Of a stretch of 21,874 bases of DNA, positions 2,728 to 9,942 are shown piece by piece (position 1 is the first letter of the stretch; every line of letters begins with the position of its first letter). The position numbers were made by a program, and so were the translations under genes. A model generated the notes under the pieces. It had not been told where the DNA came from, ran no database searches, and was given only the letters and a program-made list of their open reading frames with translations. The stretch is from a virus: the IMG/VR virus record IMGVR_UViG_3300047202_000074, positions 1 to 21,874 of that record; one strand, given 5' to 3'.

Positions 2728-3024
2728 ATGAGAAAAATGGAATTAGATGAACATCTGGTAAAATGGTTTTCCATTATCGGCCAGAATGTTATACGGCTCA
2801 GGGGTGGAACGAGTCAGGTAAATTTGGCAAAAAAAGCCAAAGTGGCCCGTAGTTCTATTCGCGCAATAGAAGAGGGGCGGAGCATAAATTTTCAGAATCT
2901 CATTAAAATTGCGGATGCTCTTGGAGTTTCCCCCGCCGATCTTTTCATAACTGATTTAGAACGCGGAGAAATTTCCTATAAGACTAAACTTTTAATGGAT
3001 CTTATCGATATCAAAAAAAAGTAA
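2728..3024 (+). CDS. XRE-family phage repressor (CI-like, HTH only)
   Basis: A 98-residue protein. Residues 17-75 form a classical XRE/lambda-repressor helix-turn-helix: IGQNVIRLR, then SQVNLAKKAKVARSSIRAIE with the recognition helix, then NFQNLIKIADALGVSPADLF. There is no C-terminal LexA/S24 autoprotease domain, so it cannot be inactivated by RecA-stimulated self-cleavage; induction must use another route. It heads the rightward lysogeny operon with lipoprotein, zinc-ribbon and integrase, and faces the Cro-like gene across a divergent promoter. The ATG at 2728 is forced by an upstream in-frame stop at 2710-2712; ATG 2737 is an alternative. Confidence 0.8.
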   Translation: MRKMELDEHLVKWFSIIGQNVIRLRGGTSQVNLAKKAKVARSSIRAIEEGRSINFQNLIKIADALGVSPADLFITDLERGEISYKTKLLMDLIDIKKK

Positions 3025-3036
3025 TTGGGGGGAATC

Positions 3037-3507
3037 ATGAAAAAGTTTTCGCATATCGCGCTTTCTCTTTTTATTTTATTTCTAGCCGGATGCAACGGGA
3101 CGCCTACAACGCCCACTACTACTACCTCCACCTCTACCACCACCACCTCTATTGCCACCACCACTTCTACCACTACCTCTACCACGACCACGACGATTCC
3201 TCCGGTGGGAGCAAATGTCATAATGACCGAAGGGCCAATTTTCATTGATGGCTATTCTTTTTTTACTTATAAAGGGATTGTGAAAAATATCGGCTATGCG
3301 AAGGCATTTAATGTGAAAATTTATATTTATTTAAGAAAAACAAACGGCTATCTTCTTGATTTTGATTATACATATATCGATACGATTTCGACGGATTTAA
3401 ATCAAAACGAAATCGCAGGTTGGTCGATTTTATTTCCGGATTCTGACCATTCAAAAAAGAACGCGATGAATAAATCAAAAACAACCTATAGTATTCAATG
3501 GCAATAA
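3037..3507 (+). CDS. Phage-encoded lipoprotein with Thr/Ser-rich linker, candidate lysogenic conversion gene
   Basis: A 156-residue protein. Residues 1-18 are a lipoprotein signal peptide (MKKF start, hydrophobic LFILFLAG) with the lipobox LAGC and lipidated Cys19. Residues 22-53 are almost only Thr and Ser. Residues 60-156 look like a compact beta domain of the FxLYD kind (GIVKNIGYAKAFNVKIYIYL), found on many bacterial surface lipoproteins. The ATG at 3037 follows GGGGGGA; an earlier ATG at 3025 has no good site. It lies in the repressor operon and is therefore expected to be made by the lysogen, on the cell surface or periplasmic face. Superinfection exclusion is a reasonable guess, but not shown. 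The distal half is clearly more AT-rich than the integrase gene. Confidence 0.7.
   Translation: MKKFSHIALSLFILFLAGCNGTPTTPTTTTSTSTTTTSIATTTSTTTSTTTTTIPPVGANVIMTEGPIFIDGYSFFTYKGIVKNIGYAKAFNVKIYIYLRKTNGYLLDFDYTYIDTISTDLNQNEIAGWSILFPDSDHSKKNAMNKSKTTYSIQWQ
3100..3195 (+). repeat. Threonine-codon low-complexity repeat inside the lipoprotein gene
   Basis: About 96 bases of ACC/ACT/ACG codons broken by TCT/TCC serine codons encode the linker after the lipidated Cys. The tract is a trinucleotide-type repeat, so slippage would lengthen or shorten the linker without a frameshift. It also produces a Val-rich shadow ORF on the other strand. Confidence 0.8.
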
Positions 3508-3541: not shown

Positions 3542-3718
3542 ATGCGTTTCCTTATCTTTCCTTGCCCCAACTGCGGCGCGCAGATCATCGCCAGGGATTC
3601 GGCCGACGGGACCGGAATCGTCACCGCCAAATGTTCCCGCTGTAAAAAAGAATTTGAGTATAGAGATATTAACGTTGAGATGATGAAGGCAACCGTGAAG
3701 CCGCTGCGGCCGTCATGA
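3542..3718 (+). CDS. Small zinc-ribbon protein coupled to the integrase
   Basis: A 58-residue protein. Two Cys-x2-Cys knuckles, CPNC (residues 8-11) and CSRC (31-34), are separated by about 20 residues, the layout of a zinc ribbon similar in size to Mu Com-like proteins. The stop TGA at 3716-3718 overlaps the integrase ATG (3715-3717), so the two are translationally coupled. The ribosome site before 3542 is weak; no in-frame ATG, GTG or TTG lies close upstream. It may regulate integrase translation or transcription, or join the recombination complex; these are inferences. The overlapping 61-codon frame at 3498-3683 shows no such motif. Confidence 0.65.
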   Translation: MRFLIFPCPNCGAQIIARDSADGTGIVTAKCSRCKKEFEYRDINVEMMKATVKPLRPS

Positions 3719-4794
3719 TGGGCGTCTATTTACGTAACAAAATTTATTGGTACAAGCGGATGATCGACGGCGTCGCATACTACCGCTCACTTAAAATAAA
3801 GAAGGGTCAGGAATCAATGCTATCGGCCAGGATGGACCAGATCGACGAGGAGATCACGGCTGAGCACTTTGGGCTTATGGCGCCGATATCTGCAGGATCC
3901 ATTACCCTAGCCGAATTCCTCGAAGTCTATAAGAAGCGAAAGGCCGGCAAGGGCTCGCTCGATCGGGATATCCAGCGCCTCAATCATGCCGTCGAACTCA
4001 TGGGAAACAAGCGCCTCATCGCCTATGGCCAGGATGACTTCCAAAAACTCGAAGCCAAACTCCTCGAGGATCGGCGGCATTCAACCGTCAATCGGTATTT
4101 TTCTGTTCTTCATCATCTATTCAGTCTAGCCGTGAAAGAACGGGCGCTTCGATCGAACCCGCTCGACGGCCATGAATATTTTATTGAGGATGCAAAAACC
4201 GGCCGAGCTTTAACTGATGATGAAATCAAAGTCCTCCTCCAAAATCTCAGAAAAATCCGGGACGACGCTCAACCCGGGGGAATAATAAAACCGATACTTT
4301 ATGATCTCGTTAAATTTGGGCTATTGACCGGAGCGCGATTATCGGAAATTCTTTTCCTTCGACATAGCCAGATCGAAAATAACCTGGCCCGTCTTCGGAT
4401 CTCTGAGACGAAATTCCGCAAGCGCGGCCGGCAGCCATCACAACGGGAAAAATTTATATATCTATCTGAATCCGCCCTTGTAATAATTCAGACTCAGCCA
4501 CGGACAAAAGACGATTATGTTTTTTCCATCGGCCGGCGGGATCCCCGCGTTATTTCCAAGGCAATCTATATACTCCGGGATAAACTCGGCATTCCTGAAT
4601 TCACCTTCCATTGGCTTCGGCATACGTTCACGACGCGGGCCGTGGAGCTCGCGGATCCCTCTCTCGTGCGCGAACTCGTGGGGCATAGCGACATGAGAAC
4701 AACGCTCCGATATACCCATCCCGGACAAGCCAAAAAACTGGATGTGACGGCAAAATTGGGGACAAAGATTTGTTCCCTCGATATAAAAGATTGA
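3715..4794 (+). CDS. int: Tyrosine recombinase, phage integrase
   Basis: A 359-residue protein that catalyses site-specific integration and excision. The N-terminal 1-60 is an arm-binding type domain with basic and aromatic residues (YWYKRMIDGVAYYRSL). Residues 62-150 are the SAM-like core-binding domain (SITLAEFLEVYKK). Residues 165-345 are catalytic: Arg208 in TGARLSEI, Lys233 or Lys235 in ETKFRKRG, His299-x-x-Arg302 in HWLRHT, His324 in VGHS and the nucleophile Tyr333 in LRYTH. All six catalytic positions are present, so it should be active. The ATG overlaps the stop of the zinc-ribbon gene. It converges on the late genes, and the tRNA-derived core lies 16 bases past its stop, as expected for int next to attP. 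Confidence 0.95.
   Translation: MMGVYLRNKIYWYKRMIDGVAYYRSLKIKKGQESMLSARMDQIDEEITAEHFGLMAPISAGSITLAEFLEVYKKRKAGKGSLDRDIQRLNHAVELMGNKRLIAYGQDDFQKLEAKLLEDRRHSTVNRYFSVLHHLFSLAVKERALRSNPLDGHEYFIEDAKTGRALTDDEIKVLLQNLRKIRDDAQPGGIIKPILYDLVKFGLLTGARLSEILFLRHSQIENNLARLRISETKFRKRGRQPSQREKFIYLSESALVIIQTQPRTKDDYVFSIGRRDPRVISKAIYILRDKLGIPEFTFHWLRHTFTTRAVELADPSLVRELVGHSDMRTTLRYTHPGQAKKLDVTAKLGTKICSLDIKD
4758..4777. repeat. Inverted repeat near the 3' end of int, candidate integrase arm site
   Basis: GGGGACAAA (4758-4766) and TTTGTTCCC (4769-4777) form an imperfect inverted repeat with a 2-base centre. The related word GGGACAAA recurs at 4903-4910, on the other side of the tRNA-like core. Short repeated words flanking the core are typical of arm-type integrase or Xis sites. 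No T-tract follows, so it does not look like a terminator. Confidence 0.3.
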
Positions 4795-4810: not shown

Positions 4811-4834
4811 ATACGGAGGGAGGGGGATTCGAAC
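4811..4834 (-). other. attP: Putative attP core: 3' end of a tRNA gene (probably tRNA-Ser)
   Basis: Read on the minus strand, 4834 to 4811 gives a T-loop GTTCGAATC, a CCCCC half-stem, then TCCCTCC and a discriminator G: the last 21 or so bases of a tRNA. A TCCCTCC-G end implies a GGAGGGA 5' end, typical of tRNA-Ser. The 5' half of the T-stem beside it (GGGCG) pairs with one mismatch, and the rest of the tRNA is absent, so identity to the host gene ends there. This is the usual footprint of a tyrosine-integrase att core, and it lies directly beside int. Phage genes flank it on both sides. Confidence 0.7.
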
Positions 4835-4923
4835 GCCCCTGGTGGCCTACCTTGAATGAATTATTTATCGGGGGAAATGGCCGGAAGAAAGGGGAACGAA
4901 ACGGGACAAAAAGGTTAACTCTG

Positions 4924-6240
4924 TTACAAATTTAGGGACAGCGCCAGCCGCTCGCCGTGGCCGATCGCGATCGCGTCGTCCATGTTCGGCTTCGCACTCC
5001 GCTGATAGGCCGCCGCCGACAGATGCTCGACGTGTCCCTTGCCGTGCGCTCGCATCCAGGCCGCGACCTTTCTCAACTGCGGATTATTCGGCCGACGGTA
5101 TTCGGTTATCGGTGGATTATGATGGTCGTGGAGCCAGAAGTTAAGTCCCTTCGCCGCTCGCATCGTATCCTGGCCATCGTTTGAGCCATACATTCCGAGG
5201 CTCATATATTCCATCATGCCAGCGGAAGTCGACCAACCTTTCGGATGGGGCGCGTTGACTGTTTCCATCGTTCCCGTCCAATGATAGGTTGCTAGTCCCT
5301 CGCCGTTTAGATCGTCTCGTAGGAGTCTTTTAAAATCGCTGGAATCGGTCCATTGAATTTGAATAAATTTATTTTGGACGCCCTCCGCTTTGAGGATCCC
5401 GACCAGCTGGGCCTGCCGGTCGTTCGAAGTCGGCTCGTTGACGCACTCCCAGATGATCGGATAGCCACGCAGGGCCCGGATGAGCCAGCGGGCCTGATCG
5501 TCGCTGATCGTTCCCCGGTATGGCTGCAGGCAGATGATCGCCGTCAGGTCCCGCTCCCGCATGAGGTCGAGCCGTTTTTTGACGACGTTCAGATAGTTGG
5601 GATCCTCGAGTTGCCAGTATTCGAGTGGGTCGTAGGGGTCGCCCGGCTTGCAGGTCGAGACATACCGCTCGGCGTTCACGCGGTCGAGGACCAGGGCGTC
5701 GTAATATCTCGGCAATTGGGCGTCCGGCCATTCGGACGTTTCTTTCATCGCCAGGCCGCCCAGGAGCGAGAAGACGACCACGCGGAGTTTCCCCTTCGGG
5801 TAGGGGTCCGGACATTTCGGGATTGGCTCTTTATGGATATAGCAGACGATAGTCGGTACTTGGCTTTGGGGATACCAGAAATCGATTGGATTGGGACAAT
5901 AGGGATTGATCAAATTTCCCGTATCCTTGCAAATCCGCTTCATAACTAGCGGTTCTTTATGGACAATACAGACGAACGTCGGAACCTGGCTTTCGGGATA
6001 TTCCCGATTCACCGGATTCGGACACCATTGATTGACGAGATCCCCCGTTTGTTCACAGACCAGTCGCCAGGCGGTAGGTTCTGGCGGGTCGGGCGGCTTG
6101 ACATGAAAGGCGCATGGCATTTTCGGCTCGTTGCCCTTGCGGAATTTTTGCCGGATCATAGATGGACAATAGGGATTCGGAATTAGACGCGACACAGCGC
6201 AGACCGTCACTTCAATCCAGGGCTTTTTGAAGATACACAT
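4924..6240 (-). CDS. Tail-associated glycoside hydrolase-like protein with three Cys3His modules
   Basis: A 438-residue protein. Residues 12-140 hold three copies of a module with identical spacing, Cys-x10-Cys-x17-Cys-x2-His (Cys14/25/43-His46, Cys62/73/91-His94, Cys104/115/133-His136), each with a CP after the second Cys. From memory the pattern C-x3-G-x6-CP...P-x3-C-x2-H also occurs at the C-terminus of some class A penicillin-binding proteins. Residues 150-400 look like a TIM-barrel clan-A glycosidase: WECVNEP with candidate acid/base Glu269, YHW at 319-321, and ITEY with candidate nucleophile Glu380. There is no signal peptide, fitting release with the virion or by lysis. It is the last late gene, with a GGAG site before the ATG at 6240. 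Substrate is unknown; a role in degrading host surface polysaccharide or wall is inferred. Confidence 0.65.
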   Translation of the reverse strand: MCIFKKPWIEVTVCAVSRLIPNPYCPSMIRQKFRKGNEPKMPCAFHVKPPDPPEPTAWRLVCEQTGDLVNQWCPNPVNREYPESQVPTFVCIVHKEPLVMKRICKDTGNLINPYCPNPIDFWYPQSQVPTIVCYIHKEPIPKCPDPYPKGKLRVVVFSLLGGLAMKETSEWPDAQLPRYYDALVLDRVNAERYVSTCKPGDPYDPLEYWQLEDPNYLNVVKKRLDLMRERDLTAIICLQPYRGTISDDQARWLIRALRGYPIIWECVNEPTSNDRQAQLVGILKAEGVQNKFIQIQWTDSSDFKRLLRDDLNGEGLATYHWTGTMETVNAPHPKGWSTSAGMMEYMSLGMYGSNDGQDTMRAAKGLNFWLHDHHNPPITEYRRPNNPQLRKVAAWMRAHGKGHVEHLSAAAYQRSAKPNMDDAIAIGHGERLALSLNL

Positions 6241-6257
6241 AACTATCTTTATTTCTC

Positions 6258-6761
6258 CTAAATAAAATATATCGCGGTAATTTGAAATTGTGTATCAGGA
6301 ATAATATCTCCGGCTAGATCAGCCTGTTGACCCGCGACGAATTTTGAAAGGTAAATCTTTGTCTGACCATTCTCGGTTTCAATGAGTCCCTGTATCGCTG
6401 TCGTTGCGGTTGCCGCCAATCCATTGGCATAGACTGACGCGGCAGCCATATATGAATAAATCGAAGCTGGCGGATAATTTCCCTGCAGAAAAGGCAATCC
6501 AGTTATTTTCAATTCTCCCGAAGGTGAATTTACTGAATCAACACTTAAATGTCCGGTGAGTATGACCAATCGACCAATTTTTATGTAATGCAGAGTTCTT
6601 TCGCTCACACCCAGCGTTATTGTCCCAGATGTCGGCACAAGCGTTACGACGGCAGATCCCTCTTTCTGGATATTCTCCCAAAGTTTATGAACTTTCTTCC
6701 AATCGGCCCCGATATGTCCACCAAGGTCGGAAGAACTGGCGATATTACCTTTATTCGACAT
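6258..6761 (-). CDS. Tail fibre or receptor-binding-like small protein
   Basis: A 167-residue protein. Residues 40-90 have a beta-rich pattern TITL...LHYIKIGRLVILTGHLSV followed by SPSGELKITGLPF, which from memory recurs in C-terminal regions of phage tail fibres and neck or appendage proteins. The N-terminal 1-35 is polar and helical and might dock onto the tail tip. It overlaps the end of the tail-hub gene by 11 bases and has a GGAGG ribosome site about 7 bases before its ATG. Position after the tail-tip gene supports a distal tail appendage. The exact role is unproven. Confidence 0.6.
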   Translation of the reverse strand: MSNKGNIASSSDLGGHIGADWKKVHKLWENIQKEGSAVVTLVPTSGTITLGVSERTLHYIKIGRLVILTGHLSVDSVNSPSGELKITGLPFLQGNYPPASIYSYMAAASVYANGLAATATTAIQGLIETENGQTKIYLSKFVAGQQADLAGDIIPDTQFQITAIYFI

Positions 6762-9700
6762 TGATGACCTCCGCCGTTATTGCTGTCTTTCCGGAGCTTA
6801 TGAGTTTTGATATCCCAAGAAGTTTGACCGGAAGATTCGCCGCCGTCCCGGTCAGCGATGGGAACCTGGTTCGATTAAAATAAATGATATCCCCGGGCAG
6901 GCAGGTATAGAGGACGCGAGGAATTGTGAAGGATATTTGCTGGCGCTCCATGACTTCGGCGATGGCCAATCCGACCCCAAGAGCATCTTCAATATCGGAT
7001 AGAGCGACCGTGATGGGGAGCGTTTTATTGACCCCATGCCGCCATGTTATCGACGGCCGGAGTATTTGAGTCACGGCATAAATGTCAGCCGAAGGATCTT
7101 CACCATAAGAAATTTGAATTTCCGAATAAAGTTGATCCTGGCTTTTAATCGCCTTAAAATCGAATACATGGACATTCCAAACGTAAGGCGCACCGGAAGT
7201 TGGGGTCGTCTGTTCGGCCCGAATCCCGAGCCGCCCCTCGCCGTCCTGCATGGTATAAGATTGAATCGTCTGTTCAATAATACGGACAACCTCTCCTGAA
7301 TCTTTGGCCTTTCGAAGATAGAGAGAGAGTGCTTCCGGATGAGCAATTTTGGTCGCATAGATCGCGTCGAGGTCCATGTCGGCGAGTGAACACCCAAGCC
7401 ACATCCGGTAAATATCGAGGAAGATTTCTGCTCCGCTGACATTGGCCTCATCGGCTGTATTGACGTCGCCCGTAAAATTCACGAGGATAATATCCGAAAC
7501 ATCATACGCGAGTTCCCGCGCGAGCGTGATATGACCGCGCTGATAATCGATAAAATAATCCGTACCTGCCTCCAACGTCGTCCCATTCTGAGTGACCGAA
7601 ACTAACTGGACCCGGCCCGCCTGGAATTCGAAAACGCGGCTTCCTACGTTGATGCAGACCGGGACGGCCTTTGTGATGGCCCCGAATCCGAACGGCCTTT
7701 CGGTATCAATACGTTTCTCATCCATCAAAGGAAATAAATCATAAAAATATTTTTCCTTAGGAAGATCGCCCCGAAGTCCGTCCCGAAGGTCGCGAAGATC
7801 AAGGCTCATCCTATGATCATCGATAGAAATGGAATCTATTGAACCCGTATTGATGGGTGCGAACTCGGTATAAATAAAATCCTCACCACCAGCAAGAATT
7901 TTAATCCTTCGATTCAGCCAATGATATTTTGCAAATCTTTGATCGAAATAAAACGCCTTGCGAATCTTACCATTGATGAGATTCGCGGTTCCCGAACTCA
8001 CGGCAAATGTACCTTTATAAAATGGTTGAATCACCTGCGATATATCAGGAATACCGTCGGCCGCAACGAGGGGGAGATAATTATTGCCATTATAGACCGT
8101 CGCCCCGCGCTGCCATGTCGTCAAATAAATCCAGAAGGAACCTGTTATGAGATAATTGGCGGGGTGAATGCCGCCGGTCGTATGAATATAGACTTTCTTA
8201 TTGTCGATATCATGCCAATACGTCCCGGCATACTCCTCGATATCAACAATTGAAGTCTTGGCTGTGAGCGCAACCCCGTTTTCATAAACCGCGATGAGCG
8301 GCGCGCCGTCCTCATCGAATTCCGTCTCATAGGTGAATTCCTGCTCGAGCGTTATCGTCCATCCCGTGAGGTCCATGAGCGGATTCGCCTTAACGAGGAA
8401 AATGAGTCGGGGCTTGCTTCTTTTGATAAGCCTCTCGAACTTCGAGGCGAGATAAACCGCCCGCGTCGTTACCGTTGCGACATTAGAATAGGCCGAATCT
8501 CCGGCCCCATTATAGGCCAGGATTCGGAACCAATAAGGAGTTGAAGGTTTAAGTTCCGAATACACGTCGAGTTCAACATTGTAATATCGACTAATTTTCA
8601 TGCTCTCGACGCCAGCGCAAATCCGCATGATTTCATAAAAATCATCCGGATCGTCCGTCTCACTAACTTCAATGCTATATCCAACTTCTCCGGAAGTCTT
8701 TGTCCATGTCAACCGCGTCCAGGTATCTTGATAATCGTTAGTAGGGATGGCTAGGTTAGTCGGGGGATCGGGAACGTCGGGAACGGTGATTTCGAATTCA
8801 TTACTGTATCCCGAATACTGGGGGTCAGCGTCTTCCGCAAAGGCCCGAACTCTATAGGTATAAGTCGATCCTACGACGCCCCCCGAAAAGGCAAACACAT
8901 CATGATAATACGTCTGATTCGGCTCGAGCGTTGCGATTACAATTCCTGTTTCTTCCCATGAACCCTCGCCCGTATTGCGCTCAATGATGTGGCTATCTTC
9001 GAGGCTGGAATTATCATCAAAGACGCATTCGACGCCGTAAAATCCTTCGACCTTGGCCGCCGTGCAGACAAGATTTGACGGTGGAGAGATTATATCCCAT
9101 GTCCAGGCTGTCGCTATATTGCTGTATTCCGAATAACCGCTTGCATTGTGCGCCCTGACGCGATACCACCATTGAGTCCGTTCAGTCAGTCCCAAATCCT
9201 CATAGGTTGTTATGCCTGCCCCAACAATACCGACTTCTTCGAAATTTGCCGGTTGGTGTTGGAGGTCATATTCCTTGGTGTGTTCAATATGGAAATCCAG
9301 CTCGTTGTCAGAATTGTCTTTCCAGTTGGTCCGAACATTATACATCCCATCCGCGACCGCCGTGAGCATCGTCGGCATTTTCGGAAGATTGCCCATCGTG
9401 AGCCAGAGTGAATTTGAAAACGGCGAATCTCCCGCCGCTGCATTAAAGGCCCGAACCCTAAATTTATATTTCGCATTCGGCGTTAACCCCGTCACGGTAT
9501 AGGTTTTGACGTTGGCCGCCGTGGTATGAATAATATCTTCACCTTGATAAACATTAAACCCATCCTCATTCTGTGAGTTATCGACCCATGATAGTACGGC
9601 CTTAAATGAGGTTGGCGGATCGTCCTCTGCTTGTGCATATCCCGAAAGCCCGGATGGAGCCGGAAGCGGCGTTATCGCATTCGTCTCGTTGCTGTACTCC

Positions 9701-9942
9701 GTATATTCTCCGCCGGTTTCGGCCATGACCCTATAGACATAAGCCGTCCCATCGCTGACGGAGCCATCGAGAATAGATGTATCGAATCCTCCGACAGAAT
9801 ATATTTCCGTAAATTGGCCGCCAGATATTTTCCGTTCAATTCTATTAGTATCGTGATAACCGGCGTTTTTCCAGTTAAGTTCAACTTCTAAACTATTGAT
9901 AGCCGCCGCCGTTAAATCATATGGCGGTCCGAGAATAGACAT
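6751..9942 (-). CDS. Large tail-tip / hub protein with five N-terminal FN3 domains
   Basis: A 1063-residue protein. Residues 1-500 are five fibronectin type III-like repeats, each with a core W, a Tyr corner (YTVTGLTPNAKYKFRVRAF; WWYRVRAHNASGYSEYSN; TPYWFRILAYNGAGDSAYSN) and joining PP-x-NL segments. Residues 500-1063 resemble a siphovirus tail-hub or tail-tip protein: a beta-rich middle (TGWTITLEQEFTYE), a conserved YFIDYQRGHITLAREL stretch and a C-terminal LPGDIIYFNRTRFP...VKLLGISK part typical of baseplate hub folds. It likely forms the distal tail tip and contacts the cell surface. FN3 domains usually lie at the C-terminal end in lambda J-like proteins, so the N-terminal array is unusual. 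The start overlaps the upstream stop as TGATG. Confidence 0.75.
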   Translation of the reverse strand: MSILGPPYDLTAAAINSLEVELNWKNAGYHDTNRIERKISGGQFTEIYSVGGFDTSILDGSVSDGTAYVYRVMAETGGEYTEYSNETNAITPLPAPSGLSGYAQAEDDPPTSFKAVLSWVDNSQNEDGFNVYQGEDIIHTTAANVKTYTVTGLTPNAKYKFRVRAFNAAAGDSPFSNSLWLTMGNLPKMPTMLTAVADGMYNVRTNWKDNSDNELDFHIEHTKEYDLQHQPANFEEVGIVGAGITTYEDLGLTERTQWWYRVRAHNASGYSEYSNIATAWTWDIISPPSNLVCTAAKVEGFYGVECVFDDNSSLEDSHIIERNTGEGSWEETGIVIATLEPNQTYYHDVFAFSGGVVGSTYTYRVRAFAEDADPQYSGYSNEFEITVPDVPDPPTNLAIPTNDYQDTWTRLTWTKTSGEVGYSIEVSETDDPDDFYEIMRICAGVESMKISRYYNVELDVYSELKPSTPYWFRILAYNGAGDSAYSNVATVTTRAVYLASKFERLIKRSKPRLIFLVKANPLMDLTGWTITLEQEFTYETEFDEDGAPLIAVYENGVALTAKTSIVDIEEYAGTYWHDIDNKKVYIHTTGGIHPANYLITGSFWIYLTTWQRGATVYNGNNYLPLVAADGIPDISQVIQPFYKGTFAVSSGTANLINGKIRKAFYFDQRFAKYHWLNRRIKILAGGEDFIYTEFAPINTGSIDSISIDDHRMSLDLRDLRDGLRGDLPKEKYFYDLFPLMDEKRIDTERPFGFGAITKAVPVCINVGSRVFEFQAGRVQLVSVTQNGTTLEAGTDYFIDYQRGHITLARELAYDVSDIILVNFTGDVNTADEANVSGAEIFLDIYRMWLGCSLADMDLDAIYATKIAHPEALSLYLRKAKDSGEVVRIIEQTIQSYTMQDGEGRLGIRAEQTTPTSGAPYVWNVHVFDFKAIKSQDQLYSEIQISYGEDPSADIYAVTQILRPSITWRHGVNKTLPITVALSDIEDALGVGLAIAEVMERQQISFTIPRVLYTCLPGDIIYFNRTRFPSLTGTAANLPVKLLGISKLISSGKTAITAEVINVE

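Follow-up and report, generated by a model that had tools for sequence, protein, structure and literature searches.

What kind of protein does a phage encode between its tail-fibre gene and its attachment site, when that protein joins cysteine-rich repeats to a glycosidase-like domain? The question is raised by one gene, P0001 (4924..6240, minus strand), an open reading frame of 438 aa with an ATG start and the sequence AGGAGA 13 nt upstream of it, in a virus sequence from IMG/VR of 21,874 nt. This whole stretch, here called the window, is probably a genome fragment. A first-pass annotation had described the product as a tail enzyme in which three identically spaced Cys3His modules precede a clan-A glycosidase-like barrel. 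The databases offered little guidance: P0001 had no match in Pfam, PHROG, NCBIfam or PDB sequences, no sequence match to any glycosidase family model and no recognisable lysin domain, and direct searches of viral contigs, genomes and phages retrieved no relative.

The modules and the family they define

The spacing C-x10-C-x17-C-x2-H occurs exactly three times in P0001, with a proline after the second cysteine each time, and the full pattern reads C-x10-CP-x12-P-x3-C-x2-H. Module 1 (C14, C25, C43, H46) lies at 6103..6201, module 2 (C62, C73, C91, H94) at 5959..6057 and module 3 (C104, C115, C133, H136) at 5833..5931, all on the minus strand, and each was delimited by the pattern, by shuffles and by the alignment of modules. 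One copy or more was found in only 0.02% of P0001 shuffles (n=20,000), which bears out the earlier claim of three identically spaced modules, and the corresponding DNA pattern matched three times in the window and not once in shuffles. The first repeat had also been called diverged, and this holds in so far as its identity to modules 2 and 3 is only 23-28%, against 55% between those two. With Cys and His kept in place, the other positions of module 1 nevertheless matched modules 2 and 3 better than shuffles did (~0.001 and 0.0004), and module 1 shares 50% identity with the only module of a homologue in phage G016. Since module 1 is closer to that module than to its own neighbours, simple decay is not the explanation that the sequences suggest; modules 2 and 3 look instead like an added pair.

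Relatives were gathered by running module DNA patterns over IMG/VR, and this yielded 16 further distinct genes that carry both module and barrel, which brings the family to 17 with the window. All relatives of P0001 are metagenomic. A stand-alone module was found as well, in the form of a 57-aa protein on a phage contig (L071, 647-829, plus strand) that consists of a single Cys3His module. Many other pattern matches were put down to chance on inspection, for example L020, L025, L034, L035, L038, L046, L060, L061, L105 to L107 and L113. Of 12 members scanned, none matched a Pfam family better than E 0.05 or a PHROG at E 0.01. Judged by its sequence, P0001 is a member of a phage protein family that is absent from Pfam, PHROGs and NCBIfam. 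In the alignment of 22 modules, C5, C16, P30, C34 and H37 are invariant, and the consensus of these phage modules is xVxVCxxSxLLPNxxCPxxExRxFxxGxEPTxxCxxH. The module profile had no match in libraries or the PDB, the module alignment had no confirmed match in viral contigs, and tblastn of the module region against phages and plasmids returned either nothing or chance-level matches only. In the predicted structure of the family member L076 the modules are strand pairs with pLDDT near 90, and the model of the window protein, which is poor (pLDDT 44), places strands at the same offsets in all three modules.

The barrels fall into five types. Type A comprises the window and G016, whose protein is an open frame with one module and is 50% identical to P0001; the barrel-like domain of P0001, residues 150-438 (4927..5793, minus strand), was delimited by 51% identity to it over residues 140-434. 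Type B comprises L068, L073, L075, L076, L077, L079 and L119 (the last assigned by its C-terminus), type C comprises L069, L024, L072 and L021, type D comprises L074, L029/L036, L037 and a module-free barrel of G007, and type E has the single member L078. Profile comparison links types B, C and D with one another (E 1e-7 to 1e-9). The hhalign comparison of type A with B, C and D was not significant, and a direct alignment of type A with the other types was discarded, as it misplaced the NE motif. One type C gene, L072 (792-2381, plus strand), has an HNH-endonuclease-like N-terminus (PF01844, E 0.016, below the cut-off) in frame with its barrel and C-terminal module, possibly a fusion or a read-through.

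Proposed terminal anchors, an attP-like site and exchange between phages

The ends of the family proteins bear on where they may reside. A hydrophobic N-terminus ending in Cys is present in 7 of the 16 distinct module proteins examined, G016 included; mostly a Pro-rich linker follows, and four of these N-termini match the lipobox pattern PROSITE PS00013. Signals of this kind typify lipoproteins, not virion proteins. The window protein, which starts MCIFKKPW, has no hydrophobic segment and no lipoprotein signal. Its residues 2-6, CIFKK (6223..6237, minus strand), belong to an element of the form C-x(1-3)-[FW][GKR][KRH], found at the N- or C-terminus of 8 of the 9 signal-less members (the window, with MCIFKK, among them) and in 1 of 547 other ORFs; the ninth signal-less member, L069, has a near-match, MNIRKWLCKIFKS. 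Members with the signal and members with the Cys element occur side by side within each of types A, B, C and D, and the modules are without exception placed between this terminus and the barrel, even in the proteins with mirrored layout (L072, L029, L037). Moreover, L119, which was found afterwards, has the signal and lacks the terminal Cys element, and the type D barrel that G007 carries at the same locus (L017, 4227-5285, minus strand) is without module, signal or Cys element. The rule that a member has either signal or element was noticed post hoc and among related proteins, and we claim no p-value for it. The pattern suggests that the terminal Cys element replaces the lipid anchor, and we propose CIFKK as the putative anchor of the window protein.

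The gene is flanked by tail genes on one side and by an attP-like sequence and an integrase gene on the other. A convergent tyrosine integrase (3715..4794, plus strand; PF00589, phrog_1) is separated from P0001 by a stretch that resembles the 3' end of a tRNA (4815..4845, minus strand), recognised by its sequence; within the window there was neither a whole tRNA gene by ARAGORN nor an Rfam match. On the other side, 17 nt upstream and on the same strand, the preceding gene is tail-fibre-like (6258..6761, minus strand; a weak phrog_14879 match, E 3e-5), followed by a fibronectin-III tail protein (6751..9942, minus strand; PF00041 and tail PHROGs), a large gene placed where a tape measure would be and the major capsid protein (phrog_212), all read from the minus strand. 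P0001 is hence encoded with the tail genes, directly after the tail-fibre-like one, and from the 17-nt gap it is probably transcribed together with them; promoter and terminator scans performed no better than shuffles. The order integrase, tRNA end, barrel gene, tail fibre is observed in G009 and G007 as well, and with this order P0001 would sit at one end of the integrated prophage. Conversion genes are commonly found at prophage ends.

Just upstream of the integrase (2728-3507, plus strand), the window encodes an HTH regulator (PF01381) and then a protein of 160 aa that has a Thr/Ser-rich stretch and the lipobox-like LFLAGC and is possibly a second conversion or exclusion lipoprotein. In two relatives, radical SAM genes lie between the tail and module genes (L069, 6994-8145, plus strand; L076, 12374-13696, minus strand; phrog_1802 E 1e-19, PF04055 E 6e-13).

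Phages whose structural or tail genes are related to those of the window carry other barrels at this place: type D in G007, type B in G009 and type C in G008, G010 and G011. The capsid protein of G007 is 82% identical to that of the window, and G016, which shares the type A barrel, shares no other gene with the window; the capsid alignment had no confirmed match in genome contigs. The cassette thus moves independently, which is the behaviour to be expected if differences between host surfaces exert selection on it. The capsid protein of G006 has 79% identity to that of the window. In this phage a tail protein of 1417 aa (L018, 3-4253, minus strand) combines a CBM_4_9 domain with a barrel-like stretch and may itself contain the glycan function.

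These observations bear on the first-pass view of P0001 as a tail enzyme. Spelled out, it would be a virion-associated depolymerase or receptor-binding protein, fastened to the tail tip by its modules or by the terminal element, whose barrel would cut or bind host exopolysaccharide at adsorption. The position directly downstream of the tail genes, the nine members, the window protein included, that lack a signal peptide, the exchange of barrels among related phages and the existence of a phage-encoded GH5-domain cellulase in Erwinia phage S6 (PMC9544554) are all compatible with it. However, lipoprotein-like signals in 7 of 16 members, the closest homologue among them, make a tail enzyme doubtful, and a location next to the attachment site is usual for conversion genes. 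On balance we place this explanation on the unlikely side.

Predicted barrel fold and active-site positions

The type B protein L076, with a structure predicted from six sequences, is modelled with a complete (beta/alpha)8 order (mean pLDDT 72, pTM 0.71). The nearest folds in the PDB belong to mannosidases and mannanases of GH5 (1uuq, Z 17.7, rmsd 3.9 over 304 residues), and Foldseek pointed to GH140 and GH5. The model of the window protein was built from two sequences, and its own fold matches are only suggestive, although in residues 210-320 strands and helices alternate as they should, despite the low overall pLDDT. We infer the barrel fold of P0001 from the family, its own model being poor and its link to L076 by sequence not significant; the TIM-barrel-like domain proposed earlier is accordingly a prediction for the homologue that may extend to the window.

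Both motifs highlighted in the first-pass annotation are read in the sequence at the positions claimed, WECVNEP at residues 264-270 with Glu269 and ITEY at 378-381 with Glu380. Asn268-Glu269-Pro270 (5431..5439, minus strand), which we propose to hold the general acid at the end of beta4, is conserved in every barrel of types A to D; in the more reliable region of the window model N268-E269 stands at the end of a predicted strand (262-265), as the equivalent Asn-Glu does in L076. Counting strands in L076 puts Asn-Glu after beta4, His330 after beta6, SNDG (Asp362) after beta7 and Glu407 on beta8. The corresponding residues of P0001, on the minus strand, would be His320 at the beta6 position (5281..5283; from the motif order, and conserved in G016), Asp355 of SNDG at beta7 (5176..5178; every barrel of types A to D has DG, the strand is taken from the L076 model) and Glu380 of ITEY, probably on beta8 (5101..5103; motif order, and strand from the L076 model). 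Barrels of types A to D keep the order NE, H, DG, E, with the His not found in G007. The spacings in the window between Glu269, His320, Asp355 and Glu380 (51, 35 and 25) resemble those of Bacillus agaradhaerens Cel5A (E139, H200, E228, W262), so that the nucleophile position falls on Asp355 and not on Glu380. Of the supposed clan-A pair, judged by motif order and by the strands of the L076 model, Glu269 keeps its place on beta4, but Glu380 matches the beta8 Glu and beta7 would carry Asp. With Asp predicted at the nucleophile position, membership of P0001 in clan GH-A is not established.

An Asp at beta7 would fit either an inverting mechanism or a loss of catalysis. If catalysis were lost, P0001 would be a non-catalytic exclusion protein that binds a glycan or receptor on a degenerate glycosidase scaffold. 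Every examined barrel of types A to D has Asp for the clan GH-A nucleophile Glu, and known phage exclusion lipoproteins are binders (PMC3952083), both of which agree with such a role; yet the retention of NE, H, DG and E across barrels less than 25% identical suggests a working site, and a conserved Glu-to-Asp substitution fits inversion. We therefore consider a pure binder unlikely.

Proposed role and closest known systems

We hypothesise that P0001 is an anchored, glycan-directed and exchangeable envelope protein serving conversion or exclusion; its location, substrate and role are read from the features above, and we put this forward tentatively, at a little less than an even chance. The family architecture would be a terminal anchor, one to three Cys3His modules and a GH5-like barrel, or the mirror image. 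The anchor would hold the protein at the host membrane, through a lipoprotein signal in part of the family and through a short Cys-containing end elsewhere; the modules, stabilised by metal or disulfides, could form a membrane-proximal binder or stalk; and the barrel would act on a host-specific surface or wall glycan. This action might protect the lysogen or the released progeny, by receptor removal, superinfection exclusion or release from debris. Given an Asp rather than a Glu at the beta7 position, P0001 is predicted to be an inverting enzyme (Glu269 as acid, Asp355 as base) or else a glycan binder without turnover.

In favour of the anchored envelope protein are the 17 proteins in which module and barrel are joined, the GH5-like barrel model with its conserved NE, H, DG, E order, the signal in 7 of 16 members and the Cys element or a near-match in the other 9, the constant place of the module between anchor end and barrel, and a gene position between tail fibre and attP-like tRNA end at which barrel types are swapped. 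On the other hand, the window protein lacks a signal peptide and the anchor role of its element was recognised post hoc, type A is not significantly linked to the modelled barrel types and its own model is poor, and co-transcription with tail genes would also fit a virion protein. A more specific version, quite unlikely as it stands, is an exchangeable membrane-anchored inverting GH-A-like glycan hydrolase, with Glu on beta4 and Asp on beta7, whose modules, shared with class A penicillin-binding proteins, would guide it to places of wall synthesis; lipid and the C-x(1-3)-[FW][GKR][KRH] element would serve as alternative, interchangeable anchors. That P0001 is an endolysin, a barrel with wall-binding repeats laid out like GH25 lysins, is very unlikely: it is the last late gene, combines barrel and repeats, has an Amidase_3 gene in the same region in G023 and lies in a probable 21.9 kb fragment where no lysis enzyme was seen, but we demote this reading because conventional lysis enzymes coexist in relatives (GH24 in G010, Amidase_3 in G023 and G017, motif matches to Amidase_2 in G011 and to M15 in G007 and G024), and no lysin domain was found in the family.

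As an anchored envelope protein, P0001 would make its family a candidate for reshaping the host cell surface, in a recurrent phage gene whose place, flanked by the tail-fibre gene and the attachment site, is one of exchange. Barrel swaps among phages with related tails point to adaptation to differing host surfaces, and the family perhaps links phage surface modification to wall synthesis.

Among known systems, GH5 and clan GH-A enzymes (the 1uuq exo-mannosidase and the mannanases 3wh9 and 1rh9) resemble the L076 model in fold, with Z of 16 to 18, and the family barrels share with them Asn-Glu after beta4 and His after beta6. They differ in the Asp that replaces the nucleophile Glu on beta7, in the extra Glu on beta8, in an identity of only 8-13% and in the absence of any Pfam match in the family. 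The consensus of the 22 modules fits the pattern C..SG.L...CP......F..G..P...C..H of the C-terminal tails of some class A penicillin-binding proteins, to which the modules may be related; unlike in those proteins, the module lies between anchor end and barrel and there is no transpeptidase domain, and in the literature we found nothing on this likeness. The GH5-domain cellulase of Erwinia phage S6, gp095, which may be a tail enzyme, is likewise phage-encoded and GH5-like in fold (PMC9544554), but its GH5 domain is a recognised one and contains two catalytic Glu, whereas the P0001 family has Cys3His modules, anchor-like ends and the beta7 Asp. Exclusion lipoproteins such as Lpp of mEpimmI and Ltp of TP-J34 are unlike the family in that its members are ~370-530 aa long with a glycosidase-like barrel and that the window member lacks a signal; they resemble it in being phage-encoded and in the lipobox present in part of the family, and exclusion lipoproteins encoded within structural gene clusters have a precedent in mEpimmI Lpp (PMC11893012), the same setting in which the P0001 family gene is found.
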